DNA from: Larkinella rosea
GTDB taxonomy: Bacteria; Bacteroidota; Bacteroidia; Cytophagales; Spirosomataceae
Direction of reading: 5' to 3'
DNA length: 64,000 nt
Assembly (NCBI RefSeq): GCF_003858635.1
Contig: NZ_RQJO01000015.1
Span: 434,001-498,000, forward strand
The translations under genes and the position numbers were made by a program. Positions 1-64,000 of this stretch are shown one piece after another. Under the pieces are notes generated by a model, which was not told the DNA's origin, did not search any database, and was given only the letters and a program-made list of their open reading frames with translations. Position 1 is the first letter of the stretch. Each line of letters opens with the position of its first letter.

Positions 1-20
1 ACTTTTATCCACAGAAACTT

Positions 21-126
21 TGATAGGAACACAGATTTGACGGATTGAACGGATTTTCACGGATAACTCAGTTTTAATCCGTTGCATCCGTCCAATCGCA
101 TCGGCGACCCGGCCGCGTTCCTATCA
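21..126. repeat. Palindromic intergenic element downstream of nuoM
   Basis: The outer arms TGATAGGAAC (21-30) and GTTCCTATCA (117-126) are perfect inverted repeats. Inside them an imperfect pair built on GACGGATTGAACGGATT and AATCCGTTGCATCCGTC faces inward. The element ends three bases before the nuoM stop codon. The nested symmetry fits a REP- or MITE-like intergenic repeat or a long hairpin between nuoM and the next gene (nuoN would be expected, outside the window). Confidence 0.5.
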
Positions 127-128
127 TT

Positions 129-1790
129 TTATTCCACACTAAACCGCTGAATCCATTCTGCGACGGTGGAGTTGGTGAGGTTGAAAAGCAGATTGGGAAA
201 CAAACCGAGCAGTAGGGCCAAAGCCGCCAGCGGAATCAGCATGAGCCGTTCGCGGGTGTCGAGGTCGGTAAGTTGTCCGGCGGTTTCGGTGCGCGACCAG
301 AGGGGCCCGAAAAACATACGCTGGAGCGTCCAGAGGAAATACGCAGCCGCCAGAATGATGCCCAGCGTGGCCAGAGCCGTCATCCAGCCGGGTAGCCAGA
401 GCGACTGAAAACTGCCCATCAGCGTAAACAATTCGCCCACAAAACCGGAAAAACCGGGCAATCCCAGCGAGGCAAAAAACGCAATGGCGGTCAGGGCGGT
501 GTAGCTCGGCATGGCGCTGGCCAGCCCCCGGTAATTGTCGATGCGCCGGTCGTGGGTGCGGTCGTAGATGACGCCGGTCAGCAAAAACAGCATCGCCGAC
601 AACACGCCGTGGCTCGCCATTTGATAAACGGCCCCGTTGACACCTTCCGACGTCAGTGACGCAATCCCCAACAGAACAAAACCCATGTGCGATACCGAAG
701 AATAAGCGATCATTTTCTTGAGATCACTCTGCGCCAGGGCATTAAACCCGCCGTAGACAATCGAGATCACACCCAGACCGGCCAGCAGCAGGGCGTATTC
801 GGCAGCCCCGTCGGGGAACAAGCCCCAGCCGATTCGCAGAAAACCGTAGCCGCCAATTTTGAGCAAGACGCCCGCCAGCACCACCGAAACCGGCGTTGGA
901 GCTTCCACGTGAGCATCGGGAAGCCAGGTATGGAACGGCACGACCGGCAATTTGATGGCAAATCCGAGGAAAACACACAGAAACGCCAGCATCCGCGTCG
1001 GAATGCCGAACACAATACGTTCGCCGGTTGGACCCAGAAAGGAGTTGGGCAAATAATTGCTACCGTGGGCCATGTAGCGCAGATCGAACGTATGCACCAG
1101 TTGCTGCGACTGAATTTTGTAATCGGCGAGCAGAAACTGAACCTGTCGGATGATGGTGTCGGTGGCTTCTGACCGGTCGCCGATTAGCCCAATATTAATT
1201 GCCGTTTCAACCGGGTCCATGACTGATAAATACAGACTGATCATCACCAGCAGAATCAAAACCGAACCCGCCAGTGTGTAGAGAAAAAACTTGATGGAGG
1301 CATATTCCCGGCGCGGACCGCCCCATAGACCGATGAGAAAATACATCGGCAGCAGCATGAATTCGAAGAAGAGGAAGAACAGGAAAAAGTCGAGCGCAAT
1401 GAAACAGCCAATGATGGTGGCCGTCAGAAGCAGATACAGAGCGTGGTAGGCTTTTAACCGCTTGTCGATGGTCCAGGACGAGATCGCGCCGACGAGCATG
1501 ACTACGCCCGAGAGCAAAACCATCGGCAGGCTGATGCCGTCGATGCCGACCAGATAATCGATGGAAACCACGCCGAGCGACCCCAGTGGCAGGGTAATCC
1601 AGTCGACGCGTTCGAGAAGTTGGTAGTCGGCCAAAGCCGGATCGAAAGCGAGGTAAATGGCTCCGCAGACCAGCAACTCAAGGCTGCAAACCGCCAGCGT
1701 AATCCACTTATAAACGTTTTTCTGACTGTCTGGTAAAAGAACGACCAACAGCGAACCGAGCAAAGGAATAAAGATGAGTAATGACAGCAT
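129..1790 (-). CDS. nuoM: NADH-quinone oxidoreductase subunit M
   Basis: Membrane-arm, antiporter-like proton-pumping subunit of respiratory complex I. About 14 hydrophobic segments are visible. The essential glutamate of the family lies at about residue 143 (FFEFMLLP) and channel lysines at about 280 (FAIKLPVVPFHTWLPDAH) and 311. The protein has 553 residues against about 509 in E. coli. The extra length is mostly a polar loop at about residues 190-265 before the FHTWLPDAH block. The ATG start is directly followed by the first membrane helix. It lies 36 bp behind nuoL on the same strand, so the two are co-transcribed. The family assignment is certain; the role of the loop is unknown. Confidence 0.97.
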   Translation of the reverse strand: MLSLLIFIPLLGSLLVVLLPDSQKNVYKWITLAVCSLELLVCGAIYLAFDPALADYQLLERVDWITLPLGSLGVVSIDYLVGIDGISLPMVLLSGVVMLVGAISSWTIDKRLKAYHALYLLLTATIIGCFIALDFFLFFLFFEFMLLPMYFLIGLWGGPRREYASIKFFLYTLAGSVLILLVMISLYLSVMDPVETAINIGLIGDRSEATDTIIRQVQFLLADYKIQSQQLVHTFDLRYMAHGSNYLPNSFLGPTGERIVFGIPTRMLAFLCVFLGFAIKLPVVPFHTWLPDAHVEAPTPVSVVLAGVLLKIGGYGFLRIGWGLFPDGAAEYALLLAGLGVISIVYGGFNALAQSDLKKMIAYSSVSHMGFVLLGIASLTSEGVNGAVYQMASHGVLSAMLFLLTGVIYDRTHDRRIDNYRGLASAMPSYTALTAIAFFASLGLPGFSGFVGELFTLMGSFQSLWLPGWMTALATLGIILAAAYFLWTLQRMFFGPLWSRTETAGQLTDLDTRERLMLIPLAALALLLGLFPNLLFNLTNSTVAEWIQRFSVE

Positions 1791-1826
1791 AGCAGGGTGT
1801 CGGCAACAGCAATGGGCTGGTGTGGA

Positions 1827-3731
1827 CTAAATCAAAAACCAAAGAATGACTAACAAACCGACCACCGCACTGGCAATGTACGATTGAACCCGGCCATTTT
1901 GCACCGAACGCGTCAGATTACCCAGTCGGTGGGCGAGCCACGACGCGCCGTTGACCAGGCCATCGACAATGGCGCGATCGACCCAGCTGATCATGTGCGC
2001 CAGCACAACGTTGCCGATACCAATAAAATCGACCAGCCGGTCGATGATGCGTTGGTCGAACGCAAACGAAAACCGGGCCAGCCGCACAAACGGGCGCGCA
2101 ATCACGCGATTGTAAAAACCGTCGAGGTACCAGTTGTGCTCCGACAGGCGACTTAGGCTCGTTGATTTGGTCAAAACCGGTATTCGCCAGCCGAGCCAAA
2201 TGCCAATTGCCACGACGGTAATGGACAAAACCGCAATCCAAAGGTGTTCTTCGCTTTCGCTTACCGCGGGAAATAACCGGTAAAACCAGCCATGTTCGGC
2301 AGAGAATGGGTTGACGGCAAACACAAAACCGATCGACAAAACCGCCAGCATCAGGATGGGAACCGTGAGAATCGGACTGGATTCGTGCGCATGATGATCC
2401 GGGTTTCGGGATTCACCGAAGAAAACCAGTTTTCCCTGACGTGCCATGTAACAGGCGGTTAATCCGGAAGATAAAACCGCCACGACCGGAATAATGTAGG
2501 CAAAACCGCCCTGCTGGCTGGCCCAACCAAATGCGCCGGCCAGGATAGCTTCTTTCGATAAAAAACCGGAGAACAACGGAAAACCGGAAAGCGCGGCTGC
2601 ACAAACCGCCCAGCCGCTGAATGTAACGGGCATGACTTTTCGCAAACCGCCCATTTTTCGCATGTCCTGCGTATCGACGCCGTGAATGACCGACCCGGCG
2701 GCCAGAAACAGGCCGGCTTTGAAAAACGCGTGGGTGGTCAGGTGAAAGAGTGCGGCCGATCCGTTGCCGGTTCCCATACCGATCACCATCAGGCCCAGTT
2801 GCGAAACGGTGGAATAGGCCAGTACTTTTTTAATATCGGTTTGATACAGCGCCGAGTAAGCCGCCATCAGCATCGTAATGGTGCCAACAATGGTGATGAT
2901 TAATAAAGCGTCGGGCGTCAGTAAAAAGTGGATGCGGGCCAGCAGAAAAATTCCGGCGGCCACCATCGTAGCGGCATGGATGAGTGCCGAAACCGGCGTT
3001 GGGCCTTCCATCGCGTCGGGCAGCCAGGTGGTAAGCGGAAACTGGGCCGACTTGCCGATGCAACCGCAAAACAGGCAAAAACCGGTCAGCGTGGCCAGCC
3101 AGCCATTGGAGGTGAATTCGGTCGGGAGCGCGGCCAGTTCGGTGGTTCCGGCCTGGAAAAGCACCAGAAAAATACCGAGCAGAAAACCGGCATCGCCAAC
3201 GCGGTTCATGAGAAATGCCTTTTTGGCAGCCGCAGCCGCCTGCGGTTTTCGGAACCAGAAACCGATCAATAAATACGACGACAGGCCGACCAGTTCCCAG
3301 AAGGCGTAGAGTACAATCAGGTTTCCGGCCAGCACAATGCCGAGCATCGAACCAATAAACAGACTCAGGAAACCAAAATACCGGTAGCGATCGCGTTCGT
3401 CGTGGAGATAGGAAATGGAGTAAATCTGAACCAGCAGCGCAATGAAATGGACGACAATTAGCATGAGCAGCGTCAGGGCATCGATCCGGAACGAAATGGG
3501 GACGACGCGACCCGGCATGATGAGCCATTCCGTGCGTAAGGTCAGGATTTCGGTGCCGATTTGATTCGCCAGAAAAACCGATAACCCCAGTCCGGTCAGT
3601 GTTAGAACAGCGGCAGCCATTCCGACCCAATGATTGATTCGCCGACCCGCCAGCAACCACACACTACCGCTCAAAAAAGGCAGCAGCAACAGGAGCCAGA
3701 AAAGATTTCGGATGGTATTCTCGTCGAACAT
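1827..3731 (-). CDS. nuoL: NADH-quinone oxidoreductase subunit L
   Basis: Largest membrane subunit of complex I, distal proton pump with the lateral amphipathic helix. Visible hallmarks are the conserved glutamate at about residue 146 (FWELVGLSSYLLIGFW), the KKAFLMNRVGD block at about 170-180, and PLTTWLPDAMEGPTPVSALIHAATMVAAG, which carries the channel histidine and is given here only as a family landmark near residue 240. I start at the ATG at 3731 (MFDENTIRNLF), giving 634 residues, normal for NuoL. The reading frame stays open to 3818, but that extension is Arg/Pro-rich and unlike the family. No nuoK lies upstream; instead a SusCD operon and its terminator do, so nuoL starts its own transcription unit here. 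Confidence 0.95.
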   Translation of the reverse strand: MFDENTIRNLFWLLLLLPFLSGSVWLLAGRRINHWVGMAAAVLTLTGLGLSVFLANQIGTEILTLRTEWLIMPGRVVPISFRIDALTLLMLIVVHFIALLVQIYSISYLHDERDRYRYFGFLSLFIGSMLGIVLAGNLIVLYAFWELVGLSSYLLIGFWFRKPQAAAAAKKAFLMNRVGDAGFLLGIFLVLFQAGTTELAALPTEFTSNGWLATLTGFCLFCGCIGKSAQFPLTTWLPDAMEGPTPVSALIHAATMVAAGIFLLARIHFLLTPDALLIITIVGTITMLMAAYSALYQTDIKKVLAYSTVSQLGLMVIGMGTGNGSAALFHLTTHAFFKAGLFLAAGSVIHGVDTQDMRKMGGLRKVMPVTFSGWAVCAAALSGFPLFSGFLSKEAILAGAFGWASQQGGFAYIIPVVAVLSSGLTACYMARQGKLVFFGESRNPDHHAHESSPILTVPILMLAVLSIGFVFAVNPFSAEHGWFYRLFPAVSESEEHLWIAVLSITVVAIGIWLGWRIPVLTKSTSLSRLSEHNWYLDGFYNRVIARPFVRLARFSFAFDQRIIDRLVDFIGIGNVVLAHMISWVDRAIVDGLVNGASWLAHRLGNLTRSVQNGRVQSYIASAVVGLLVILWFLI

Positions 3732-3820
3732 CGCGCAAGATAACGCCGGACGCTCGCCGGGACAAATATCTGTACGAAACGGGCGTATAAAAATGCGAGT
3801 TGAACGAACAGCAAACAAAA

Positions 3821-3869
3821 CGGTTCCGGTTTTCGGGTGACCGAATCGATCACCCGAAAACCAGAACCG
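3821..3869 (-). terminator. Terminator of SusCD operon 1
   Basis: Two 20-base arms (3821-3840 and 3850-3869) are complementary with one mismatch and a 9-base loop. Read on the minus strand the stem is followed by TTTTGTTTG, a U-rich tract. It sits between the SusD stop (3912) and the nuoL start (3731). The stem contains CGGTTTTC/GAAAACC, the heptamer that is abundant across the window. Confidence 0.75.
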
Positions 3870-3911
3870 CCTGGGATGGATAGGAAAATGTGGGCCGAAA
3901 AACCGCCTTTG

Positions 3912-5387
3912 TTAATTTAGATTCGGGTTGATCGACGTATCTGTATACGGCAGCGGAAACCAGTAATTGGCTTTCGTAATGGGTTTGATCGGTTGCAGAT
4001 CGTCGGGACTTTTGGCGGCATTGGCGGCTTCGACGCGCTCGAGCCGGATCAGGTCGAACCAGCGGGTGCGCTCACACGCGAATTCCCAGGCGCGTTCCTG
4101 CACCACCTCGTCGGCAAACTGGGTTGCTGTCAATCCGTCGGCAGGCGACAACGCTTTCGTGCCGGTGGCCCAGCCGCGCAGCCGAATCTGGTTCAGGGCA
4201 TCGTAAGCCAGTTGGTCGGGACCGCCGGTTCCGCGCGCTTTGGCTTCGGCATAAATCGTCAGGACGTGCGGATACCGCATCATTACCGACGGCAGCGAAA
4301 TGCTGGAGGTCACGACGTTGCCTTTGATGTACCATTTCTGGTAATACGGGTGTTTGGTCAAACTCTGCTGCCAGGGAATTTTCGTAGCGCCCAACCCAAA
4401 CTCCGTCCGGAACGTGGCGGTTTTGCGGGGGCCGGCCGGAAAACTGTTGAAGAAGTTCAGCTCGGCAAACATATCGTCCCAGCCGCCTTCTTCGCCTGGC
4501 ATCGTCGTGTTACCATAGGTCGCGTTAGCCGTGCCGCTGCCACCCGTAAAACCGCTGATCTGGAAGACCGACTCCGGAATCGTCGCCACCGCCGGATCGT
4601 TCGCAAAAACCTCCGCAAACGTCGGCATCATCGCAAAACCGTAGGTCGCCCGGTTGTCAATCACCTCTTTTGCTTTGGCAGCCGCCAGGTCATACTTGTC
4701 GGTTTGCTTCAGCGGCCAGCCCGCCATCGTCAGGTAGACATCCGCCAGAAACGCCTTCGCCGAACCTGCGTTGGGCCGACCCGGATCGCGCCGGGTGTTG
4801 GGCAGCATGGTTTCCGCTTTTTTCAGGTCGTCCACAATCAGCGCGTAGACTTCGGCGGGCGTCGATTTCTTGATCGTCAGCAAGTCGGCCGAGTATTCAC
4901 CCGCCGTCACCAGCGGAATATTGCCGTAAAACCGGGTCAGCCAGTAGTACGAAAAACCGCGAATGAAATAGGCTTCGCCCGCAATGATGTCGATCGTCGC
5001 TTTGGTCCCAACGGTTTTTGTGTAGTTATTAATGACATTGTTGGCGCCCTGAATGGCTTTGTAACAGCCCGTGTAAACCGCTCCGGACCGCTGGTTGGTC
5101 GTCGAGACGTTAAACTGATCGAATTCCCGCCAGTCGGCCTTGTTGCTGGCCGGGTGGGTCGTCACGTCGTCGCTGCCGATGGTGGCGGCATTGGCCGAAG
5201 GGTGGATAAAACCGTAGCCCCACTGGTTGGCAAAGCCCCGGTAAGCCCCGGTCAGGGCCGATTCCAGACCGTCCTGGGTCGAGAGCACGTTCGGGCCGTA
5301 GAGCAAACCGGTGGTGTCTTCTTCCAGGTAATTTTTGCAGCCTGCTCCCAGCACGGCTACGAAAGCAAATAAGAGTATCTTTTTCAT
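3912..5387 (-). CDS. SusD/RagB-like outer-membrane nutrient-binding lipoprotein
   Basis: Surface lipoprotein that works as the lid of a SusC-type TonB-dependent channel and binds its glycan or other ligand. The N-terminus is a lipoprotein signal peptide with the lipobox cysteine at about residue 17 (LGAGCKNYLEED). The TPR-rich body follows, and the C-terminus has the family features ERAWEFACERTRWFDLIRL and NYWFPLPYTDTSINPNLN. The length of 491 residues is normal. It follows the SusC gene by 14 bp and is the last gene of the pair. No enzymes or sensor genes sit with this pair in the window, so the ligand cannot be inferred. Confidence 0.93.
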   Translation of the reverse strand: MKKILLFAFVAVLGAGCKNYLEEDTTGLLYGPNVLSTQDGLESALTGAYRGFANQWGYGFIHPSANAATIGSDDVTTHPASNKADWREFDQFNVSTTNQRSGAVYTGCYKAIQGANNVINNYTKTVGTKATIDIIAGEAYFIRGFSYYWLTRFYGNIPLVTAGEYSADLLTIKKSTPAEVYALIVDDLKKAETMLPNTRRDPGRPNAGSAKAFLADVYLTMAGWPLKQTDKYDLAAAKAKEVIDNRATYGFAMMPTFAEVFANDPAVATIPESVFQISGFTGGSGTANATYGNTTMPGEEGGWDDMFAELNFFNSFPAGPRKTATFRTEFGLGATKIPWQQSLTKHPYYQKWYIKGNVVTSSISLPSVMMRYPHVLTIYAEAKARGTGGPDQLAYDALNQIRLRGWATGTKALSPADGLTATQFADEVVQERAWEFACERTRWFDLIRLERVEAANAAKSPDDLQPIKPITKANYWFPLPYTDTSINPNLN

Positions 5388-5401
5388 GGATTGTCAGAAT
5401 T

Positions 5402-15369: not shown

Positions 15370-15408
15370 AAAAAACCGCCATTAGATCGTTCTGATGGCG
15401 GTTTTTTT
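15370..15408 (+). terminator. Terminator of rpmE2
   Basis: AAAAAACCGCCAT (15370-15382) and ATGGCGGTTTTTTT (15395-15408) form a 13-bp stem with a 12-base loop and a U-run. It is built from the AAAACCGC/GCGGTTTT pair seen in other hairpins here and could work in both directions. Confidence 0.85.
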
Positions 15409-15439
15409 GTTTTCTTTACGTGATCACTTTCCGGCCTTT

Positions 15440-16096
15440 ATGAAAATACTGTTACTCGGTGCCACCGGTCGTACGGGAAAACTACTCCTGGAACAGGCGT
15501 TGAAAGCCGGTATTGCGGTGCATGCGCTCGTCAGGGATACCGACAAAGTGAAGGTGATCGACCGAAATCTGAAACTCTACGAAAGCAAAACGCTCGACCG
15601 CACCGCGCTTCGGTTGGCCATGCAGGGCTGTGATGCGGTTTTGAGCACGTTAAGCATCTCCCGCAAATCCGAATTTCCGTGGAGCGGCCTGAAATCCCCG
15701 AAAGATTTTCTGTCGCACACGCTGCGCAACGTCCTCGAAATCGCGAACGAACTGCACATCAAACGCATCATCATCACCACGGCCTGGGGTGTTCACGAAA
15801 CCAAAAAAGACATTCCGGGCTGGTTCCGGTTTTTCATCGACTACAGCAACGTTGGCGCGGCCTATCGTGATCATGAAATCCAGGAGAACCTGCTGAGAGC
15901 CTCACCCATTGACTGGACGATCGTCCGGCCCGTCGGTCTGATCAATTCCCGGAAGAATCGAAAAATCAGGCTCACACTCGATAACCAGCCGAAACCGAGT
16001 CTGACCATCAGCCGGACGAACGTCGCTAAATTCATGGTTGAGATCTACAAAACCGGTGATTACAAGCAGGAAGCGGTTACGATTTCGGAGGTCTGA
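15440..16096 (+). CDS. NAD(P)H-binding SDR-family protein (NmrA/atypical SDR type)
   Basis: Rossmann-fold protein of the atypical short-chain dehydrogenase group (SDR_a5/NAD(P)-binding). The N-terminus carries the dinucleotide motif LLLGATGRTGKLLLEQAL (GATGxxG). IIITTAWGVHETKKDIPGWF lies at the usual active-site position, but no classical YxxxK is visible. The C-terminal part, DWTIVRPVGLINSRK, matches the family. I use the ATG at 15440 (218 residues), since the frame upstream overlaps the rpmE2 terminator. It is likely an NADPH-sensing or flavin-reductase-like protein; exact function unknown. Its stop abuts a REP-like repeat. Confidence 0.85.
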   Translation: MKILLLGATGRTGKLLLEQALKAGIAVHALVRDTDKVKVIDRNLKLYESKTLDRTALRLAMQGCDAVLSTLSISRKSEFPWSGLKSPKDFLSHTLRNVLEIANELHIKRIIITTAWGVHETKKDIPGWFRFFIDYSNVGAAYRDHEIQENLLRASPIDWTIVRPVGLINSRKNRKIRLTLDNQPKPSLTISRTNVAKFMVEIYKTGDYKQEAVTISEV

Positions 16097-17143: not shown

Positions 17144-18709
17144 CTAAGCATACCGGATGTAAAAGTACAGAACCATCGCGGTAACTAGGGCCCACCAGAT
17201 AAAAGGATTTCGCAAACCGCGCTGCTGGTCGCGTTCGGCGGGGAGAAGAGAGAGACTTTCTTTGTTCCAGATCAGGTCAGCCAGTTCGGCTTCGGGCTTG
17301 GGTTTGGTCACCAGACTCACTAAAACACAGAGCAGCATGCACGTCCAGAATACGATGCCGGTGCGGTTGAAAAACGGCATCGTCGGAAACAGGATTTCGA
17401 GCGCAATCGACAGCGGAATGGTCAGGATTCCGGCAGTCAGGGCGCCGGCGTGGGTGGTGCGTTTCCAGAGAATGCCGAGCAGGAACATCACAGCGATACC
17501 GGGCGTGAACAGGCCGTAGGCATTCATCAGGTACAGAAAAACCGGTTTGTCGGATTGGGTCATGAATAAACCCGTACACAAAATGCCGACGACAATGATC
17601 GTGGCTCCGGCAATTCGCCCAAACCGCACCGCCTGCGCGTCCGTTGCGTCTTTTTTGAAATACGTCAGGTAGACATCGACGGTCAGAATCGTGGTGCAGG
17701 AGTTGATGGCCCCGGAAAGGTGCGACATCACCGCCGAAATCAATCCGGCCATGACCAGCCCGACCAAACCGGCTGGCAGCAGATTTTCGACCAGCGTGGA
17801 AAATAGCAAATCCGGTTTGTCCAGATTCGGGAATAATTTGGGAGCCACCAGGGCCGGAACCGTGATAATAACCGGAATCAAAAACTTCAGGTAATCACCG
17901 AATACGACGCCCATCCGCGCATGCCACTCGTTTTTGGCTGCCAGCACCCGCTGCACGATAAACTGGTTCGTCGCGCAGTAGAAAACGCTGATGCAGAGCG
18001 TGCCGCCGAGGTACATCGTCCACGGAAAATCCGGGTCGCTGGCGGGCAGAATCAGGTCCCAGTCTTTGGACGTTTCGATGACGGCGTCAACGCCACCAGC
18101 CGCATTGACGGTCGCGATCGTCAGCGCCACACCTCCCAGCACCAGCACGATCAATTGCAGCATTTCGGTCCAGATCACCGCCCGCAAACCGCCCGCAATG
18201 GTGTAAATACCGGTAAAAACCGCCAACACCAGCACGCTGGCAACCACCGGAATTCCCAACAGCGAATGCAACGAGAGTGCGCCGAGGTACAAAACTGCCG
18301 CAATTTCCACGAAAACGTAGGTCAACAAAATCAGTGATGCGTAGGTTGTCCGGGCGGCTGCGCCGAAGCGTTTTTGTAAAAATTCGGGAATCGTGTAAAA
18401 ACCGTTGCGGATATAAAACGGCAGGAAAATCCAGAGCAGGGCGTTAAAACCGATCAGAATCGCCCCCCACTCCATCGCAATGGCCACAAAACCCCGGCTG
18501 TAGGCCACGCCCATTGCCCCGACCAGGTGATGGCTGCTGATGTTGGAGGCAATGATGCTGCCGCCGATCATCCACCACGGCAGTTTGTCACCCGCCAGAA
18601 AATAATCCCGCTTGGTTTTTTCGCCTTTGCGGGACGCATAAATGCCTAACGAAATAACCCCCAGGATGTAAACGCCAAAAATAATCAGGTCAAGCGTGGA
18701 TAGATTCAT
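17144..18709 (-). CDS. SSS-family sodium:solute symporter
   Basis: Inner-membrane symporter of the solute:sodium symporter family (SGLT/PutP type) with 13-14 hydrophobic segments in 521 residues. Visible family features are the first helix LDLIIFGVYILGVISLGIYA, GDKLPWWMIGGSIIASNISSHHLVGAMG in short form GSIIASNISSHH (about 50-62), and GLISAVMSHLSGAINSC around residue 320. Bacteroidota relatives often carry sugars or sugar acids. The start overlaps the end of the ceramidase-like gene by 20 bp, so translation is probably coupled. Likely imports a product of the locus; the substrate is unknown. Confidence 0.92.
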   Translation of the reverse strand: MNLSTLDLIIFGVYILGVISLGIYASRKGEKTKRDYFLAGDKLPWWMIGGSIIASNISSHHLVGAMGVAYSRGFVAIAMEWGAILIGFNALLWIFLPFYIRNGFYTIPEFLQKRFGAAARTTYASLILLTYVFVEIAAVLYLGALSLHSLLGIPVVASVLVLAVFTGIYTIAGGLRAVIWTEMLQLIVLVLGGVALTIATVNAAGGVDAVIETSKDWDLILPASDPDFPWTMYLGGTLCISVFYCATNQFIVQRVLAAKNEWHARMGVVFGDYLKFLIPVIITVPALVAPKLFPNLDKPDLLFSTLVENLLPAGLVGLVMAGLISAVMSHLSGAINSCTTILTVDVYLTYFKKDATDAQAVRFGRIAGATIIVVGILCTGLFMTQSDKPVFLYLMNAYGLFTPGIAVMFLLGILWKRTTHAGALTAGILTIPLSIALEILFPTMPFFNRTGIVFWTCMLLCVLVSLVTKPKPEAELADLIWNKESLSLLPAERDQQRGLRNPFIWWALVTAMVLYFYIRYA

Positions 18710-20090
18710 GTTGGATCAGCGAGCGGGTAATACGGATAGCGGTTTCGGTGAGTAGCTCCAACGAACCTTTTTCGAAGGGAGATTGCCAGACAGGGTAAAT
18801 ATCAGTGTCGTATAAATCGGTGGGGGGTAAATAACCGGTCGAGCCATTCACGATATTCATGACCGCGACCGCATTCGGAGCCAGTTTTTCCCGCAGGATT
18901 TGCTGAAATTCGGAATACGCTTCGTTCGGTTGACCGACCAGAAGCGCATCGCCAATTCGCCAGACCCAGAGCGGCATTTTAGTCGTGTCGCCATCGCCGA
19001 CGGTTTTCCGGATGCCGCGTTTCCGCCACAGCCGCTCTTTCAAAACATTGTCATTACACGCGGCCCATTGCGCTTCAATTTCGGCCAGTGATGGCAACGT
19101 TTTCAACGGCAATTCAACCTCAATCAGCTCGGTCAAAAGCGTACGGGAAGGCTCATAAGCGGTTTTCTTCCAGATTGCCAACGGTGCACCCGACTCGACG
19201 ACCCCGTCAAAAGCAAGGCGGTTTTTCGGCGGCAAAACCGCTTCCAGGGTCGACAAAACCGCATAGCCCAACTGCCGCCCGTACGCATCCGGAATGCTGA
19301 CATCCCCGACGTATTGTTCCCGTGGAGCCAGCTCTCCGCAAGCCCCCAGCAGAAACAGGGTGGGTGCGCTGGTGGCCGTTTCCACCACCTCGCGCATGGC
19401 CCCGATGTAGTCGGGCGAAATCAGGCGGTTTTGCCACGCCAGCGTCGTCGGGTGGCAGGCATAATTGACCAACGTTCCCATCGTTTTGCCCTCGTTGTTG
19501 ACGATTTGTCCGACAAGAAGTGTATCATCGGCACTTTTTTCGGGATTCCAGCCGCAGACGAAGCGGTCTTTATCGACGTCTGGTAAATCCCGGTTGCTGG
19601 CCAGATTGCATTTGCCGTAATTCCAGGTCAGCGTGGCCGGTTCGGTTTTGGCCAGCGCCGTTTGAATGGCCTGAATCGCCCGTTGCTGAACCAATTGGAG
19701 ATACGGTTCGACCAGATGCCCACCGGTTTTCGTGGCGTCATCCCGGCTGAGGCTCGGCCCGGCGTGGGTGTGCGACAGACAAAACAGCAGGCGTGATGCG
19801 TCCAGCGACACCGCTTCCAGAATGCCGTTGCGCAAAAACCGCTCGTCGTCGGAACTACGCCACCAGCCCAGATCGGCCCCGATCAACACCAGGGGTTGCG
19901 CTTCATAGGCGGTTTGAAATGTCACGCAGGTGAGCATCAGCGGGCGATGAATGCCTTCGGCGGCTTCGTGCGTAGCAGCCCCCCAATTGCGGGCGTAAAT
20001 GCCCACCGGCGGGGTAATATCTTCCTGTGCCACACCGATCAAACCGGTGAAGGAGGATTGTTTATAATCGGGGTATTTTTGCGATTCCAT
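18690..20090 (-). CDS. Neutral ceramidase-like amidohydrolase
   Basis: Protein of 466 residues related to the N-terminal domain of neutral/alkaline non-lysosomal ceramidases. Family features are GVAQEDITPPVGIYARNWG at about 19-37, FCLSHTHAGPS (about 103-113, zinc-ligand histidines), NYACHPTTLAW (about 209) and NGSTGYLPP near the C-terminus. It has no signal peptide and lacks the C-terminal domain of true ceramidases. In Bacteroidota such proteins are common in carbohydrate loci and their substrates are mostly unknown; an amide- or ester-bearing sugar derivative is possible here. It overlaps the following SSS gene by 20 bp. Confidence 0.85.
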   Translation of the reverse strand: MESQKYPDYKQSSFTGLIGVAQEDITPPVGIYARNWGAATHEAAEGIHRPLMLTCVTFQTAYEAQPLVLIGADLGWWRSSDDERFLRNGILEAVSLDASRLLFCLSHTHAGPSLSRDDATKTGGHLVEPYLQLVQQRAIQAIQTALAKTEPATLTWNYGKCNLASNRDLPDVDKDRFVCGWNPEKSADDTLLVGQIVNNEGKTMGTLVNYACHPTTLAWQNRLISPDYIGAMREVVETATSAPTLFLLGACGELAPREQYVGDVSIPDAYGRQLGYAVLSTLEAVLPPKNRLAFDGVVESGAPLAIWKKTAYEPSRTLLTELIEVELPLKTLPSLAEIEAQWAACNDNVLKERLWRKRGIRKTVGDGDTTKMPLWVWRIGDALLVGQPNEAYSEFQQILREKLAPNAVAVMNIVNGSTGYLPPTDLYDTDIYPVWQSPFEKGSLELLTETAIRITRSLIQHESIHA

Positions 20091-20121
20091 TCAACAAAAA
20101 TTTAATTCATTTTATACTTAT

Positions 20122-20266
20122 CAGCCCACGGTTTTAACCGTGGGACCAACGCCAATTTTATCAAATAGACATAAACCGTTTTAACGGTTTGAAAATTCTA
20201 AAACCGTTAAAACGGTTAGCATCCTACGATTTCGATTTGTGAACCCACGATTAAAATCGTGGGCTG
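20122..20266. repeat. Nested four-hairpin repeat array
   Basis: Four self-complementary units lie in mirror order. The outer left hairpin is at 20125-20144 (CCCACGGTTTTAACCGTGGG) and the outer right at 20244-20263 (CCCACGATTAAAATCGTGGG). The inner left is at 20173-20190 (AAACCGTTTTAACGGTTT) and the inner right at 20201-20217. The outer two differ at one base pair by a compensated G:C to A:T change on both sides of the stem, so hairpin pairing is conserved. It separates the ceramidase-like and MFS genes. Confidence 0.8.
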
Positions 20267-49315: not shown

Positions 49316-49402
49316 TATACGGTTTTCGGTGGCTGATGCGTTCCAGCTACCGCAATGTATAAACTTGTCAGAAAGCGCGCGTCAGCCACCGAAAACCGTA
49401 TA
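49316..49402. repeat. Intergenic inverted repeat B between preT and preA
   Basis: Two 21-base arms (49316-49336 and 49382-49402) are perfectly complementary and contain ACGGTTTTCGGTGGCTGA; outside them the right side repeats TACTGAAAACCGTAAA. The arms carry the abundant CGGTTTT heptamer. The stem could uncouple preA from preT expression or stabilise the upstream mRNA. Confidence 0.8.
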
Positions 49403-55986: not shown

Positions 55987-56047
55987 TTGATTTTTCGGGC
56001 GTTGGAGAAACCGATTGGTGAAAAAGAACACCCCAACTTATGGGTTG

Positions 56048-56614: not shown

Positions 56615-56677
56615 CGTTTGTTCGTTTACTGCTTTTCGTCCTGAAATTAGTGCAGATGGATTACCGGTTTTTGGGAT

Positions 56678-57046: not shown

Positions 57047-57158
57047 GCCTTTTGGGATAGATAGTTAAACAAAAGCGCGTCGATGAACGACAAATTGGTT
57101 AAAAATCAATACAATACCCGTTTATCGATGCGCTTTCTTCTTTTGTCTGCTTCTGTTT

Positions 57159-59307: not shown

Positions 59308-59659
59308 CTTTTCTTGTTTTAATGGTTACTAATACATCGTCAAGTTGATTGAACCGGCTTTCCCAAACCGTTTTGAATTGTTCTAACCACTTGTCGATTT
59401 CTTTCATTTTGTCCATTTCGAGAGAGTAAAAAATCTCTCTTCCTTTGTGTTCCTGTTTTACGATTTCGCATTCGGTCAAAATGCGTAAATGTTTTGACAC
59501 TGCTTGCCGTGTTGTATGGAAGTTGTCGGCAATGGCGTTGGGTGTCATTGCCTGTACTGCAAGTAAGACGATGATTGCTCGTCTTGTGGGGTCAGCCACG
59601 GCCTGAAAAATATCTCTACGCATTTGTCTACCTGTATTAATGAAATCAATCGGTTGCAT
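59285..59659 (-). CDS. ArsR-family winged-helix regulator
   Basis: DNA-binding repressor of 124 residues from the ATG at 59659. Helix-turn-helix region: [20 protein letters not shown] (about 17-36), [40 protein letters not shown]. It lacks the CVC metal-binding motif of ArsR/SmtB, as is usual for members paired with AHSA1 proteins. A -7 element (seen as CAAATTTA on the plus strand, 59685-59692) lies 26 bp upstream. Confidence 0.9.
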
Positions 59660-59684
59660 ATATACGCGCAACTAATTGGTTTCG

Positions 59685-59692
59685 CAAATTTA
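59685..59692 (-). promoter_or_regulatory. -7 element of the arsR-AHSA1 operon
   Basis: TAAATTTG on the minus strand matches TAnnTTTG. No TTG lies at the expected -33 distance, so only half the promoter is supported. Confidence 0.35.
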
Positions 59693-59719
59693 TTTTCAAT
59701 TTTTTTTGAGGAATAAAGG

Positions 59720-59870
59720 TGGGGAAATGCAAAGGCGCAGGGTGGTGCTGCCGCCCGGCGGCCCGGCAAAAGAGGCAAACTCGGCTGCTTTTCCTACAAA
59801 CATTCGGTCGCTGGGCGACCCCAAAAGATGTGTATATATAATGCCGAAGGTGCGAGGAATTGCACCCACC
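59720..59870. other. Intergenic stretch with small hairpins
   Basis: No gene seen. Two short stems are visible: GGTCGC/GCGACC (about 59808-59822) and GGTGC/GCACC (about 59850-59867), with GC-rich runs at about 59745-59770 unlike the AT-rich surroundings. It could be an old repeat element. Confidence 0.35.
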
Positions 59871-59944
59871 AAAACCGCTGATCGAACAATTTTAGGAAAA
59901 ACATGCGAAGATAATTTTCCTAAAATTGTTCGATCAGCGGTTTT
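59871..59944. terminator. 30-bp perfect inverted repeat, bidirectional terminator
   Basis: Arms at 59871-59900 and 59915-59944 are exactly complementary over 30 bases with a 14-base loop. The stem opens with AAAACCGCTGATCG and ends with TTTT on both strands. It ends one base before the stop codon of the DUF6326 gene. It probably ends that gene's transcript and, from the other side, anything read on the plus strand. Confidence 0.75.
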
Positions 59945-60376
59945 TCATGTTTCAATACGAGGCCATTTCCAGGCATAGCGGATAATTAGACCAAGAAGAA
60001 TCACTTCTACAACAGCGCCAAACACCATATGCATCCAGGCTTCGCCTGCCAGATTAAACAACATATAAGGAATGTGAATCGCGGCCACGATGAGGTTTGT
60101 CCAGCGATTTACGTTAGCCGGTAAGGCGACAGAGAGAAAAATCATGAGCGCCGGAATCGTCACAGCAGCGAGTACGATCAAAAGAAATGCTTGCGTAATT
60201 TCAAACACAAATGCCTTGCCTGCTAACAGATCTTCCAGTGCACCCGGCATAAATAAGTGAAAATAATCGACATAGAGGTAGAGAAACATAAAACTCGCCC
60301 ACAACGCTGCCAATTTCAGTTTCAAATTAACCTTGATGTCTTCCAGTGCATTTTGGGGTATTTTTTGTGTATCCAT
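59945..60376 (-). CDS. DUF6326 family membrane protein
   Basis: Protein of 143 residues with four predicted membrane helices (about 22-45, 58-80, 88-110, 116-135). Family landmarks: ALWASFMFLYLYVDYFHLFM after a charged start, MPGALEDLLAG, PANVNRWTN and LAGEAWMHMVFG. Function unknown. It is 10 bp downstream of the porin-like gene and co-directional. Confidence 0.88.
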   Translation of the reverse strand: MDTQKIPQNALEDIKVNLKLKLAALWASFMFLYLYVDYFHLFMPGALEDLLAGKAFVFEITQAFLLIVLAAVTIPALMIFLSVALPANVNRWTNLIVAAIHIPYMLFNLAGEAWMHMVFGAVVEVILLGLIIRYAWKWPRIET

Positions 60377-60386
60377 AAATGATCAC

Positions 60387-61013
60387 CTAAAAGTTAAACC
60401 CAAAATGAAATCCCGGTTCTCCGAAGACAAATTTCGACCATTTATCGTCTAACTGTTTAAATCCATCCGGCATTTTGGTGTGATAAGGACGGTGGGTAAT
60501 GGCAATGGAGGGTTGAATAAAAAACCGGTCCTTAAAAAGTTTGATGTGATAACCAACGCGGTACGTATTGAAAAACTGAAATCCATTGTCAATTTTTTTA
60601 CCGTCAGCATTCACAAAAGTTTGCCAGGTAGGCATGACATTCAATTCGGTATATAGACCTTTCCAAAAAAATCGTTGGTAAGCCACGGAGAAGCCATACT
60701 CACGAATATACCCCGGAAATTTTTCTTCCGGCTTTCCGTATGAGTTGTTTAAAAAGGGGTGAATACCATTCGGCCAGGCATATTTCCAGGTTTTTGGTTC
60801 TAGTGCAATGACATCTTTCCCGGTAATACGATAGCCTACATTGAGTTGAAAAAAGTCGGGTGGGTTTGTCGTTGCCAAATTACCCAATAAAAATATGGTG
60901 CTCCCAACGAACCACCGTTTATACGTGCTGTCTGTCTTAGCATATTGGGCTTTGAGGGGAAGCGTACTCGTCATTAGTAAGACAAAACCAATGAATAAAA
61001 TTTTCTTTTGCAT
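60387..61013 (-). CDS. Outer-membrane-like protein, paralogue 1
   Basis: Exported protein of 208 residues (signal MQKKILFIGFVLLMTSTLPL, cleavage KAQ). The mature part starts YAKTDSTYKRWFVGSTIFLL and has alternating hydrophobic strands ending GFHFGFNF, typical of a small beta-barrel. It is clearly paralogous to the gene at 61640, sharing DSTYKRWFVGS, QLN-GYRIT-KDV and the F-F-F-rich strands. Function not recognised. The pair flanks a DUF6567 lipoprotein. Confidence 0.8.
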   Translation of the reverse strand: MQKKILFIGFVLLMTSTLPLKAQYAKTDSTYKRWFVGSTIFLLGNLATTNPPDFFQLNVGYRITGKDVIALEPKTWKYAWPNGIHPFLNNSYGKPEEKFPGYIREYGFSVAYQRFFWKGLYTELNVMPTWQTFVNADGKKIDNGFQFFNTYRVGYHIKLFKDRFFIQPSIAITHRPYHTKMPDGFKQLDDKWSKFVFGEPGFHFGFNF

Positions 61014-61092
61014 GTCTTTTTATTTCCTGTTAAACGATGCTGAAAAAGGAGATAAGTGAGAGATACTAAATCCACTGCCAACGTAATTAAAC

Positions 61093-61464
61093 TTACCTCG
61101 TAAATTCAACTACCTGAGCACTCACCGTTATGGTTCTTCTGACAAAGAAAGGGGCAAAACCACTGACGTGTTCCTCCGTCATTACGTTGATGATGGCTTT
61201 GGAACCATTCAACAAGTTGGCTTTCTTCATCATCGCTGAATACGCATTTTCGTACAACTGCCTTTTGTTCATCCCTCCAATGGCCAATACATAAGAGACC
61301 TCCGAACTTCCGCTTACCTGATCAATTACGTTGAAGTTGTTGCCACTTAAGTGTACCTCGGTGGCGTTTTGATTGTGGTTGGTAACAAGGGCGTGGCCGA
61401 TGCCACATGAACTAAGGAATGCCGCGAACAATACCAACACGGAATAAATGCCGATCTTTTTCAT
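61093..61464 (-). CDS. DUF6567 family lipoprotein
   Basis: Small lipoprotein of 123 residues: signal MKKIGIYSVLVLFAAFLSSC with the lipobox cysteine at residue 20. The mature part has NQNATEVHLSGNNFNVIDQV, then GGMNKRQLYENAYSAMMKKA and a final strand (FFVRRTITVSAQVVEF), the DUF6567 layout (TRL-like fold possible). It probably sits in the outer membrane. Function unknown; lies between two paralogous exported proteins. Confidence 0.85.
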   Translation of the reverse strand: MKKIGIYSVLVLFAAFLSSCGIGHALVTNHNQNATEVHLSGNNFNVIDQVSGSSEVSYVLAIGGMNKRQLYENAYSAMMKKANLLNGSKAIINVMTEEHVSGFAPFFVRRTITVSAQVVEFTR

Positions 61465-61639
61465 TGTAGTAAGTAATTATGGTTATACAGGTGTTAAAAT
61501 TTCCGGCCTATTGATGCACACGGGACGGAAAGTAGCCGCGATGGAAGGTTCTATAAAAAACCGATTCCTGAACAGGAGAGACTGTTGTTGGGGGATTTAG
61601 TATGTTGAAAGGGATCCGGTTAATTTCCGGCGAAGGATG

Positions 61640-62257
61640 CTAAATGTTAAACCCGAAATTAAAACCCGGTTGAATAAAGTAGTTGTTCCATTTTTTCTCT
61701 ACTGATTTAAAAGATTCCGGAACATGGGTTCTTACAGGCCAATAACTACATCCAATCGCTGGTTCAAAAAAGAAGCGGTTTTTGAAAAATTTAAGCTGGT
61801 AACCCAAATGGAAGTTCAGATATAACGTGTATCCATTACCAATCTTTCTTTTATTCTCGTCCAGGTATTTTTCAAAAGCATTCAATGCATGAACGGATGT
61901 AAAGACTCCTTTCCACCAGAAACGCTGGTATCCTATTGTCGGGGCAAGTATGCGGGCATGTCCGGGATAGTTTAGCCCCGGTTTATCAAAAGAGGGTCCA
62001 AAAGGGATACCGATGGGCCAGGAATAAATGGATCTTTTAAAATCAAGGGAAAGTACATCTTTCGGTGTGATTCGATAACCCAAATTTAATTGCACATACT
62101 CCGGGTTATTTACTTTGGCAAAATTTCCCAACATATAGAGTGAACTTCCAACGAACCACCGTTTATACGTACTATCTTGGTTGGCATATTGGGCATTCAC
62201 CTGTAAACGGCTTGCCAACACGAGGGCAAGTCCAATCCATACAATCTTCTTTTGCAT
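61640..62257 (-). CDS. Outer-membrane-like protein, paralogue 2
   Basis: Exported protein of 205 residues (signal MQKKIVWIGLALVLASRLQV, cleavage NAQ), paralogous to the gene at 60387. Shared elements: DSTYKRWFVGSSLYMLGNFA, VQLNLGYRITPKDVLSLDF, YQRFWWKGVFTSVHALNAFE and the ending QPGFNFGFNI. The two genes also share near-identical DNA over the DSTYKRWFVGS part, indicating a fairly recent tandem duplication. Function unknown. Confidence 0.8.
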   Translation of the reverse strand: MQKKIVWIGLALVLASRLQVNAQYANQDSTYKRWFVGSSLYMLGNFAKVNNPEYVQLNLGYRITPKDVLSLDFKRSIYSWPIGIPFGPSFDKPGLNYPGHARILAPTIGYQRFWWKGVFTSVHALNAFEKYLDENKRKIGNGYTLYLNFHLGYQLKFFKNRFFFEPAIGCSYWPVRTHVPESFKSVEKKWNNYFIQPGFNFGFNI

Positions 62258-62340
62258 ATCTTTTTAATTGATCTTAAACGATATGGCAAAGATGGATTGG
62301 CAATCGGCTTGAAATCGTTCACTTAAGTTAAGAAATGAAG

Positions 62341-62922
62341 TTACCCTTTGCTTTTTTCCAAAATCCGTGCTCTTAATCGACTCAGGGATTGTGGTTTGAT
62401 ACCCAGGTAACTTGATAATTGGTGTTGTGGCACACGTTGAATAAGGTCGGGTCTATTTTGCAGTAAGTTCAGGTAGCGCTGTTCAGGGGAAGAAGTCTTG
62501 AACTCGTCAAAATTGATTTGTTGCCGGGCCAACAGTTCTTCGGCCATTAGTCGACACATCAGGTCAAATTTTGGAAACTTGGCATTTACTTCAACGCCCA
62601 TATCCGGGTTTGTAACTATCAATATGGTATTCTCTACACAACTGATGAAATACTCAGACGGATCATTATTTTTTACACAATGGGGTGTCAATGCGTCCAT
62701 TTCTGTAAAAAAGGCGGTTGTTTTTTCTTCCCCATCGATGATGTAATATTTTCGCAGGCATCCTTTCAGGACAAAATACTCATCGCGCGATTTCTGTCCT
62801 TCTTTGAGTAAAATAGTCCCCTTCTTAACCGAGCGGAACAGGTCTAACGAAAGGAGTACGTTCTTCTCCTCTTCCGTCAGAGAAATGTATTTTGCTATGA
62901 AGTCAAATAGGATGTCCTGCAT
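62341..62922 (-). CDS. Crp/Fnr-family transcriptional regulator
   Basis: Protein of 193 residues from the ATG at 62922 with an N-terminal cyclic-nucleotide-binding-type domain (LFRSVKKGTILLKEGQKSRD, FVLKGCLRKYYIIDGEEKTT) and a C-terminal helix-turn-helix (PEQRYLNLLQNRPDLIQRVP, then QHQLSSYLGIKPQSLSRLRA). The layout is that of the small Bacteroidota Crp-like regulators, which usually lack the cAMP-contact residues. It sits upstream of, and co-directional with, the DUF6567/paralogue/DUF6326 set, and may control them. Confidence 0.9.
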   Translation of the reverse strand: MQDILFDFIAKYISLTEEEKNVLLSLDLFRSVKKGTILLKEGQKSRDEYFVLKGCLRKYYIIDGEEKTTAFFTEMDALTPHCVKNNDPSEYFISCVENTILIVTNPDMGVEVNAKFPKFDLMCRLMAEELLARQQINFDEFKTSSPEQRYLNLLQNRPDLIQRVPQHQLSSYLGIKPQSLSRLRARILEKSKG

Positions 62923-63344
62923 TGTTTTGCTGTTGTTACTGTCGTCTGTTATATGGGCCACCACCATTCGGGCTTTGTGCCGTTGGGGAATTGACCAACC
63001 GGCCGCCCGGAAACGAAGCTAAATTAACAAACAAAAGTTGAAGTTTAGAACGAATACCGAACAGAATTCCGTCCGCCGAAACGACAGCCTGGATAGGCAC
63101 TGCCGATGATCTCCGTTCGCGTGTCGCGAGTGCGGACTAGTCGTAAGGGCTTCCCGCCCGAAGCCGGTTTTAGCATACATTTTCAGCTTATTGCGAGGAC
63201 GGGCCGGAGGATTTGTGGATAGGAGTCACTCGCGGCACGCGAGCGAGAACGGAGAAATGGTGGGGCATTTGAAAACCGTCTGCCCCCTATTGCCGATGCG
63301 ATTTTAGCGGTAGTAGGTTTGCTATTTGCTTCGCTATCGCTTAT
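62923..63344. other. Intergenic region containing a MITE-like element
   Basis: No gene is supported. Most of the stretch from 63111 to 63254 is the repeat described separately. The remainder, 63255-63344, is the downstream flank of the NTF2-like gene. Confidence 0.45.
63111..63254. repeat. MITE-like repeat, copy 1
   Basis: A 144-bp element. Its left end CTCCGTTCGCGTGTCGCGAG is an imperfect inverted copy of its right end (CTCGCGGCACGCGAGC, then GAGAACGGAG). The right 91 bp (63164-63254) are 88/91 identical to 63880-63970. There is no coding capacity. Confidence 0.7.
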
Positions 63345-63710
63345 TTATTTAATGTCCAAAAACAGATACAGCGATTTTATCAAGTCATTGTCAATAAAAG
63401 CAACGTCCATTCCTGTGGCAATTGGTGTCGCCCCTTTTGGTCCAAGGTTCCAGGAAACAATCTGTGTTGCATGGTTTATTTGGGATGGCTTGTTCAATTC
63501 GAATTGAAATTCAATTGCCCATTCTGTCTGCAATTTTGCTATCAGTTCGTTAATCGCTGTGTGTCCAACAATGGCTTCCCCGGTATTGCTTTCGTAAAAG
63601 TGAATGTCAGGTGCATAAATTTCCTGCATGGCCTTCAACCGATTGTCTGCATTTCGGTCATTCCAAATGACAAGTAAGCTGTCTTCCAGGAGTTTCGCCG
63701 TTGTTGCCAT
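63345..63710 (-). CDS. NTF2-like / SnoaL-like protein
   Basis: Cone-shaped alpha+beta barrel protein of 121 residues: LLEDSLLVIWNDRNADNRLK (about 7-26), then IYAPDIHFYESNTGEAIVGH, IVSWNLGPKGATPIATGMDV and a final strand with FLDIK. The family covers many ligand-binding and enzymatic proteins; nothing indicates a specific substrate. It lies between the two copies of the MITE-like repeat. Confidence 0.87.
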   Translation of the reverse strand: MATTAKLLEDSLLVIWNDRNADNRLKAMQEIYAPDIHFYESNTGEAIVGHTAINELIAKLQTEWAIEFQFELNKPSQINHATQIVSWNLGPKGATPIATGMDVAFIDNDLIKSLYLFLDIK

Positions 63711-64000
63711 ACATTTTATTGTTTTTGTTGTATTTTATTTCCGTTGTTACGTCTTACGGCTTTAAACTAAGTCATTTTTCGGACCTTCACCACATTACCG
63801 CAAAGGATTTGCTTGTATCCTTGTTTTTTTCGTATCTCTGTTGTCGTGATTGAGAGTAAGAAGGGCTCCCAGCCCAAATCCGGTTTTAGCGTACATTTTC
63901 AGCTCATTGCGAGGACGGGCCGGAGGATTTGTGGACAGGAGTCACTCGCGGCACGCGAGCGAGAACGGAGACACCGAGTTAACCGCAGCGCTTATGATCG
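63711..64000. other. Right-edge intergenic region
   Basis: The last 290 bp contain repeat copy 2 and no supported gene. The final bases after 63970 (ACACCGAGTTAACC onward) continue beyond the window. Confidence 0.4.
63836..63970. repeat. MITE-like repeat, copy 2
   Basis: Same element as at 63111-63254 and in the same orientation; the right 91 bp (63880-63970) differ at only three positions, all transitions. The left end (CTCTGTTGTCGTGATTGAG) is more degraded. The two copies form 0.7-kb-spaced direct repeats flanking the NTF2-like gene. Confidence 0.7.

Follow-up and report, generated by a model that had tools for sequence, protein, structure and literature searches.

The heptamer AAAACCG/CGGTTTT is over-represented throughout the genome, and this excess is a genuine feature of the DNA itself. 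One genus, related to Spirosoma, shares a highly iterated word with AAACCG as its core, and AAAACCG is the version that fits it best. Our Markov, codon-shuffle, reading-phase, intergenic, related-genome and substitution analyses uphold the genome-wide, DNA-level signal proposed in a preliminary description of a stretch of 64,000 nucleotides (the window). In the species compared, the word disappears at a lower rate than others do, which suggests a cellular factor that reads it. With a probability of about one half, we propose that AAACCG is a genus-wide iterated word kept by weak selection or drive through a putative abundant, sequence-specific DNA reader.

Abundance and shape of the word

The plus strand of the window carries 102 AAAACCG and 78 CGGTTTT, while the third-order Markov model suggested in the preliminary description predicts 57.6 of these 180 copies. 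The hexamer AAACCG, with 322 copies against 158.4 expected at the same order, has the highest excess score among the window hexamers under Markov orders 1, 2 and 3 alike. Since an order-5 model, which takes the hexamers within the heptamer as its input, accounts for 161 of the 180 copies, the special unit is AAACCG with graded flanks rather than a discrete heptamer. The genome-wide abundance claimed from the window was borne out: the 8.17 Mb whole genome G000 holds 19,544 copies (9,738 AAAACCG and 9,806 CGGTTTT), against 1,501 + 1,483 for the reversed control. Copies occur on either strand, within and between genes, at a density of about 2.4 per kb. Locally, the ten AAAACCG reported between 2161 and 3240 are present and the single CGGTTTT reported with them is not, while the estimate of about six in each orientation between 18001 and 20100 was exact (Table 1).

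Within the core, CCG is strict, the A-tract is graded and the 5' side is A/T-rich. The following base is preferably G or C, and T in some species; this flank preference drifts inside the window's genus, from CCGC/G in the window's subclade to CCGT in G100 and G043. The excess grows gradually as the word lengthens, and a scan of gapped trimer pairs (gaps 0–8) revealed none that outdoes contiguous AAACCG.

Table 1. Features of the window that bear on the word
Feature	Position	Strand	Remarks
AAAACCG/CGGTTTT copies, n = 180	1..64000	both orientations	149 inside called genes, 31 intergenic; order-3 Markov 57.6
nuoL-like gene	1827..3818	-	Pfam PF00361/PF00662; 14 word copies, all three codon phases
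Dense stretch	2161..3240	+	10 AAAACCG, 0 CGGTTTT, by count
Inverted repeat AAAAAACCGCCAT / ATGGCGGTTTTTT, loop 12	15370..15407	.	second arm overlaps the mechanical start of ORF 15395-16096
Mixed stretch	18001..20100	both	6 AAAACCG, 6 CGGTTTT, by count
Inverted repeat AACCGTTTTAACGGTTT, loop 10	20174..20217	.	between called genes
Inverted repeat TATACGGTTTTCGGTGGCTGA / TCAGCCACCGAAAACCGTATA, loop ~45	49316..49402	.	read from sequence
30-base inverted repeat, outer ends AAAACCGC / GCGGTTTT, loop 14	59871..59944	.	outer arms read from sequence

Coding and intergenic copies

AAA, ACC, AAC, CGG and CCG are the most used codons of their amino acids here, so ordinary codon usage and protein composition might produce the excess. 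We therefore took 634 genes from contig 13, as called by our own ORF caller, and permuted their synonymous codons. With protein and codon usage kept, 447 copies were predicted and 1,723 were seen (3.85-fold, z 79); a stricter shuffle that also kept the dinucleotides at codon boundaries predicted 745 (2.31-fold, z 46). The shuffles thus yield just 26% and 43% of the copies, and the reversed control GCCAAAA reached only 1.30-fold and 1.05-fold, respectively. All six reading phases hold copies in these genes. Neither the codon shuffle nor the single-frame test, each named in the preliminary description as able to overturn the signal, did so. Codon usage also leaves the equal intergenic enrichment unexplained. 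We reject this explanation and give it almost no credence. At the protein level, some word-spelling dipeptides of contig 13 exceed both their reversals and other genera (Asn-Arg 1.38 vs Arg-Asn 1.08, for example); for Lys-Pro, two other genera match the enrichment, and Val-Leu and Val-Phe show none.

The nuoL-like gene illustrates this indifference to frame. Its coding strand carries one AAAACCG and 13 CGGTTTT, read as X-Gly-Phe, Ala/Pro-Val-Leu, Ser-Val-Phe, Arg-Phe-Ser or Arg-Lys-Pro, and the two reading frames reported for the word in this gene hold but understate the case. The closest named NuoL among the matches listed is that of Spirosoma sp. 48-14, at 57% identity.

Outside genes, the density is 2.24/kb, compared with 2.48/kb in coding DNA, and the excess over an order-1 Markov model is 7.0-fold and 6.35-fold, respectively, with similar flank preferences. 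Convergent intergenic regions reach 7.28-fold, against 6.83- to 6.94-fold elsewhere. Intergenic pairs no more than 30 bases apart comprise 16 converging, 9 diverging and 14 same-direction pairs; the excess of converging pairs, which bears on a possible terminator role for AAAACCG, is only mild. Non-coding hairpins with the word in their stems had been reported at four places. Inverted repeats do occur at all four, but arms of the form AAAACCGC...GCGGTTTT are found only at 15370 and 59871, and not at 20173 (AACCGTTTTAACGGTTT) or 49316, where the arms read TATACGGTTTT...AAAACCGTATA.

On 858 kb of one contig, the two orientations number 1071 and 1025 (P = 0.33). The strand bias that had been proposed as a check is absent from this stretch, which leads us to reject strand-oriented signals and disfavours the segregation-type site suggested earlier, together with Chi-type sites. 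Regular spacing was not seen, the copies being unevenly spaced (CV 1.25), and no phasing appeared in 10-base bins.

Relatives, and the gain and loss of copies

Relatives, whose genes came from our ORF caller as well, were read as stretches of 60–400 kb (60–858 kb over all genomes of the genus), with one genome per species. Ranked by excess score, AAACCG leads all hexamers in the stretches read from each of the nine genomes belonging to the window's genus (observed/expected 1.86–3.02); for three other genera the same codon-corrected test, which covered 12 genomes overall, gave 0.96, 1.09 and 1.29. On this measure the excess is strong in every genus member read, and weak or missing in the three others. 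Whole-genome counts, and the codon-corrected test in the 12 genomes, place the strong over-representation in this lineage within the family, and AAAACCG density varies about 3-fold inside the genus. Another genus, g18, has a gapped word of its own, ACGTANCG, with 5,380 and 4,968 copies in its genomes against 758 for the control in each; the remaining 59 genomes hold at most 1,805 copies. Outside the family, some distant Bacteroidota show a similar raw excess of AAAACCG over the reversed control (G164 1,363/220, G278 1,215/210 and G389 1,184/210; outliers of the phylum survey chosen by eye), with ratios above those of sparser genus members such as G100 (6,407 vs 1,954). Among the literature matches listed, none reports the AAAACCG or AAACCG word, which is not proof that no such report exists.

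A further finding concerns GMGGCG, which is nearly absent across a group of four genera; restriction-like palindromes also drop to zero in short stretches of some relatives.

Polarised synonymous changes in triples of close species revealed that these species continue to maintain AAACCG. In the first triple (41 genes), 29 losses were observed against 65.9 expected (P = 2.7e-7), the strongest deficit among 815 hexamers, together with 17 gains against 8.7 (P = 0.008), a gain excess that lies outside the twelve strongest in this triple alone. The second triple, which includes the window's genome (14 genes), gave 19 losses against 42.9, ranking first of 152, and the triple G100/G043/G058 showed a weak deficit (35 vs 50.5, rank 13 of 583). 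Pooling yielded 83 losses against 159 and 43 gains against 24.3 (rank 3 of 1,907), but the triples share G058 and maybe genes and are not independent, and we rely on the first. A previous comparison of G000 and G071 by permuted words (90 of 176 copies kept, against 456 of 1,311 for pooled permutations) is superseded because its pairs had no identity cut-off.

Fewer losses and more gains than expected argue for weak selection or drive on AAACCG. Fixation formulas give for S of 1.2–1.5 a loss ratio of 0.52–0.43 and a gain ratio of 1.72–1.93, close to the observed 0.52 and 1.77 (pooled) and 0.44 and 1.95 (first triple); S of 1.5 corresponds to an equilibrium enrichment of 4.5, above the 2.4–2.6 of AAACCG in the first triple. 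When the three triples are pooled, protection extends to each position of the word, with loss ratios of 0.34–0.62. The pooled ratios are 0.44 for transitions and 0.66 for transversions, while A>C (9 vs 10.3) and A>T (5 vs 4.7) losses are not suppressed. By orientation and frame, the ratio is 0.33–0.39 in four of six classes and 0.71–0.73 in the other two.

Candidate explanations and known systems

According to our preferred reading, the putative DNA reader would work better on DNA rich in AAACCG, and each copy would be retained by weak selection or selection-like drive. The reader would most likely be a nucleoid or chromosome-organising protein and, next, a repair or recombination factor. The nucleoid-binding role listed among the functions first suggested, or another DNA-reader site, is accordingly the one we prefer.

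A functionless, context-dependent mutation or repair bias of unusually long context would, at equilibrium, likewise depress losses and raise gains. It would also fit the similar coding and intergenic enrichment, the independence of the copies, the absence of strand bias, the gradual rise of the excess with word length and the loss types that are not suppressed. What speaks against it is that no position of the word lacks protection, uneven though this protection is. Moreover, the C>T and G>A neighbours are not depleted relative to the shuffle (AAAATCG 0.99, AAAACTG 1.14, AAAACCA 1.55; stricter shuffle 0.86, 0.98 and 1.09), the lowest CCG variant being AAAACGG (0.74 and 0.57), and the word of neighbouring g18 is gapped. 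Vsr, the T:G context repair enzyme, is patchy, occurring in two of five genus genomes and two of seven others, one of these partial; Vsr-type repair was rejected, as the enzyme's presence does not track AAAACCG, nor are the neighbours that such repair predicts particularly depleted. We hold such a bias to be unlikely, though deserving of serious consideration.

A DNA-uptake word, spread by transformation and recombination because an extracellular receptor prefers AAAACCG-rich DNA, appears less probable. The dialect-like words of different genera, the lack of strand bias and the selection-like gain and loss would suit it, and a strict three-base core with graded flanks resembles the CTG core of DUS (excerpt of PMC3630211). 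ComEC (PF03772) is present in all 12 genomes tested, but equally in genera without the word. The secretin PF00263 was detected in none of the 12, and with it no canonical type IV pilus exit, against 6 of 14 control genomes, which argues against Neisseria-type uptake; the Bacteroides control was also negative, so the absence may be phylum-general, and a divergent secretin could escape. The word is also short and graded, and convergent regions show no concentration of it. Together with the intergenic densities and pair orientations, this leaves the parallel once drawn with Neisseria uptake terminators weak.

An orphan methyltransferase site serving regulation or repair is more doubtful again. 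HIP1 and alternate HIPs are precedents of lineage-specific iterated words with matching methyltransferases (excerpt of PMC4390886), but AAAACCG is non-palindromic and needs no palindromic extension: in the codon shuffle AAAACCGC (4.77-fold) exceeds AAAACCGG (3.93-fold), both being enriched. A long shot is a self/non-self DNA code, in which the family would obey paired word rules, a genus self word (AAACCG, or ACGTANCG in g18) and a forbidden GMGGCG; a reader would favour self-word DNA, and GMGGCG would be lethal through an unprotected nuclease or some comparable agent. The loss of restriction-like palindromes from short stretches of some relatives makes this reading slightly less probable.

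If a reader exists, the roughly 3-fold density range, the different word of another genus and the protected single copies provide a comparative system for finding it through presence/absence comparisons and biochemistry. A DNA word that shapes codon choice genome-wide is also relevant to codon-usage studies.

Among known systems, Chi/KOPS-type motifs are likewise over-represented short words, but they are strand-biased along the replichore, and the strand symmetry of AAAACCG argues against this class. The A-rich octamers of most bacteria share A-tracts, over-representation, frame indifference and a chromosome-wide distribution, but they are homopurine/homopyrimidine and widespread (excerpt of PMC2843746), while AAAACCG contains CCG and, within its family, is concentrated in a single genus. 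Neisseriaceae DUS and Pasteurellaceae USS are similarly non-palindromic, with a strict short core, graded flanks and dialects among relatives (excerpt of PMC3630211), and AAAACCG is, like them, over-represented on both strands, in and between genes. It is nevertheless shorter and fuzzier, with a mild converging-pair excess, no secretin and a hypothetical receptor and transformation. HIP1 and the alternate HIPs of cyanobacteria (GCGATCGC) resemble AAACCG in being short, lineage-specific and present in thousands of copies, with relatives using different words instead. Unlike AAACCG, which is asymmetric and whose reader is putative, HIP1 is a palindrome linked to known methyltransferases; the function of such iterated words is described as still little known (both in the excerpt of PMC4390886). 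AAACCG adds a second, independent and non-palindromic case, in another phylum.

The favoured word in the source genome

The window (G+C 50.5%) holds 102 copies of AAAACCG and 78 of CGGTTTT, in agreement with the over-representation claimed in the preliminary description. Six copies of each were counted at 18001-20100, as claimed, and the ten plus-strand AAAACCG copies claimed for 2161-3240 were recovered, while the single CGGTTTT copy reported there is absent (0). The excess outlasts the third-order Markov model proposed as the test against it, which predicts 57.6 copies against the 180 counted. At Markov orders 1, 2 and 3, AAACCG has the top excess score among the window's hexamers (322 copies against 76, 128 and 158 expected). 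The embedded hexamers alone predict 161 of the 180 heptamer copies, and the unit is therefore AAACCG with graded neighbours. The source assembly comprises 8.17 Mb in 18 contigs. Its SusC/SusD-type genes point to Bacteroidota, and the closest named NuoL among the matches listed, that of Spirosoma sp. 48-14 (57% identity), marks the genome as a relative of Spirosoma.

Synonymous codons were shuffled within each gene of contig 13 (858 kb read, 634 genes called, 694 kb coding), retaining protein and codon usage. Codon usage was rejected as the cause, since the 1,723 AAAACCG copies observed exceed the 447 (sd 16) obtained by this shuffle and the 745 (sd 21) obtained when codon-boundary dinucleotides were also retained. 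The reversed control, GCCAAAA, gave 292 copies against 225 and 278, and with either null AAACCG had the largest excess score of any hexamer. By codon phase 0/1/2, the coding copies are distributed 377/180/222 for AAAACCG and 119/388/437 for CGGTTTT. The 123 kb of intergenic DNA holds 275 copies, an enrichment of 7.0-fold over an order-1 model against 6.35-fold in coding DNA. Flank preferences agree between the two compartments: before the core, A is preferred and T disfavoured; after it, G comes first and C second, and A is disfavoured.

Along the contig, the word shows no strand bias (1071 vs 1025, P 0.33, over 858 kb of mostly positive GC skew), no regular spacing (CV 1.25) and no phasing between copy pairs in 10-base bins. 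Even the six lowest O/E values among 43 coding bins of 20 kb (1.67-2.43) are all above 1; four of these bins begin at 80-140 kb, a range including a low-GC stretch, and two lie elsewhere.

Locations and readings of individual features in the source genome (G000)
Location	Feature	Reading
Window, 49316-49402	Long inverted repeat, arms 21 bases, word included	Could be a small mobile or terminator element
Window, 59871-59944	Long inverted repeat, arms 30 bases, word included	Could be a small mobile or terminator element
Contig 13, ~100-136 kb (loci L006, L007)	Low GC, word-poor, gaps up to 10 kb; one copy of the rare GCGGCG	Probably acquired DNA
G000:C10:751135-751347	Vsr-family endonuclease gene; not found in 3 of 4 other members of the genus tested

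Lineage distribution and dialects

All nine genomes of the genus (g1) carry 5,351-19,544 copies of the word (776-2,391 per Mb), while the other 141 of the 150 family genomes carry at most 3,445. In a phylum sample of 296 genomes, three of them also in the family set, the densest genome outside g1, picked by eye (G155, 771 per Mb), just touches the sparsest g1 member (G016) in raw density. Several small genomes of f17, another and distant family of Bacteroidota, have raw word/control ratios of about 6 (for example G164, 1,363 vs 220; G278, 1,215 vs 210; G389, 1,184 vs 210), as has G000 (19,544 vs 2,984), and exceed the sparser g1 members; from these raw counts, an independent excess outside the family is possible. 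The correction for protein and codon usage covers twelve genomes: AAACCG is the top-excess hexamer in the stretches read of all nine g1 genomes (O/E 3.02, 2.86, 2.64, 2.40, 2.40, 2.38, 2.18, 1.98 and 1.86), while its O/E in three further genera from the same family is 0.96, 1.09 and 1.29.

Related clades favour different words. By the same shuffle test, the top words of another genus, g18 (G044), are AACGTA, ACGTAG and CGTAGC, which merge into the iterated gapped word ACGTANCG; it occurs 5,380 and 4,968 times in the whole genomes of G018 and G044 (for example at loci L210-L216). The reversed control numbers 758 in each of the two, and none of the other 59 genomes exceeds 1,805 copies of the word. 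No comparable word stood out in the one genome read of g5 (G004). Within g1, the flank after the core drifts, from C or G in the subclade of G000 to T in G100 and G043, where AATACCG and AAAGCCG are also favoured. Such differences suggest a recognising protein whose preference has shifted.

Gain and loss between species, and a near-absent word

Changes were polarised by majority within species triples, with expected rates that depended on position in the codon and on the two adjacent bases. In the first triple, made up of close species (G082, G091, G108; fourfold-site identity 0.81-0.82; 41 genes, 52.7 kb), 65.9 synonymous losses of AAACCG were expected and 29 were seen; none of the 815 hexamers had a more significant deficit (P 2.7e-7, with 2e-4 for the runner-up). 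Gains numbered 17 against 8.7 (P 0.008), outside the twelve strongest hexamer gains. The triple with G000 (14 genes) gave 19 losses against 42.9 (rank 1 of 152) and 3 gains against 2.7, and a third triple with fewer copies of the word, G100/G043/G058 (37 genes), gave 35 losses against 50.5 (rank 13 of 583) and 23 gains against 12.9. Pooled figures, non-independent because G058 was used twice, are 83 losses against 159.3 (rank 1 of 796) and 43 gains against 24.3 (rank 3 of 1,907). The word is thus still under maintenance in the species compared.

Under fixation formulas, a scaled strength of 1.2-1.5 gives a loss ratio of 0.43-0.52 and a gain ratio of 1.7-1.9, so that weak selection of this strength would come close to the observations; at equilibrium it would produce an enrichment of 3.3-4.5, a little more than the 2.4-2.6 measured in the first triple. 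Biased conversion or an uptake drive would give the same gain and loss pattern. Mutation bias could also be held responsible for the low loss and high gain, but it would need a long context lowering change at every word position; pooled loss ratios per position are 0.34-0.62, with 44 transitions against 99.8 expected and 39 transversions against 59.5. Two kinds of loss escape suppression, A>C (9 vs 10.3) and A>T (5 vs 4.7), the latter fitting the enrichment of AATACCG and ATAACCG.

A second word, GMGGCG (GCGGCG and GAGGCG), looks like a forbidden one. On 858 kb there are 2 GCGGCG and 0 GAGGCG, where an order-2 model predicts 797 and 247; GTGGCG (454) and GGGGCG (529), by contrast, occur frequently. 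The whole of G000 (8.17 Mb) holds 16 and 10, against 4,006 of the control GCGGAG. All three triples were devoid of new copies, where about 22, 13 and 20 had been expected before rescaling. Among 61 family genomes sampled, the near-absence was seen in the twelve from g1, g3, g5 and g18; the remaining 32 genera do not show it. Being wider than the AAACCG excess, the near-absence is probably older. Of the 16 GCGGCG copies left in G000, ten sit in loci some 3 kb long that have at most three AAAACCG against 7.2 expected, as would be the case for DNA acquired recently, and six in loci with 6-16. A restriction-type cause may apply, since restriction-like palindromes reach zero in short stretches of some relatives (CTGCAG in G043, 0 of 36 expected; CAGCTG in G082; GGATCC in G026 and G043), although in G000 they are avoided more mildly than GMGGCG (GCCGGC 0.23, CTGCAG 0.29). 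Coding DNA of contig 13 strongly avoids GCCGGC, CCGCGG, CTGCAG and CAGCTG (O/E 0.22-0.36), which is typical of a restriction-modification history. The near-absence of GMGGCG merits study of its own.

A candidate reader and known systems

We put at about one half the probability that AAACCG is read by a candidate sequence-specific DNA reader under weak selection; a nucleoid-type protein is our first guess. Vsr is patchy (two of five g1 genomes tested, two of seven others). ComEC was present in all twelve genomes tested, word-free genera included, and therefore does not discriminate. AAACCG resembles DNA uptake sequences (DUS) in its strict three-base core, CCG, its graded flanks and its dialects (PMC3630211); its genomes differ in that no secretin was detected in the twelve tested, a Bacteroides control genome also being without a match. 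AAACCG falls outside the strict definition of a HIP because it is non-palindromic, but it shares with HIP the features of iteration and confinement to a lineage (PMC4390886).
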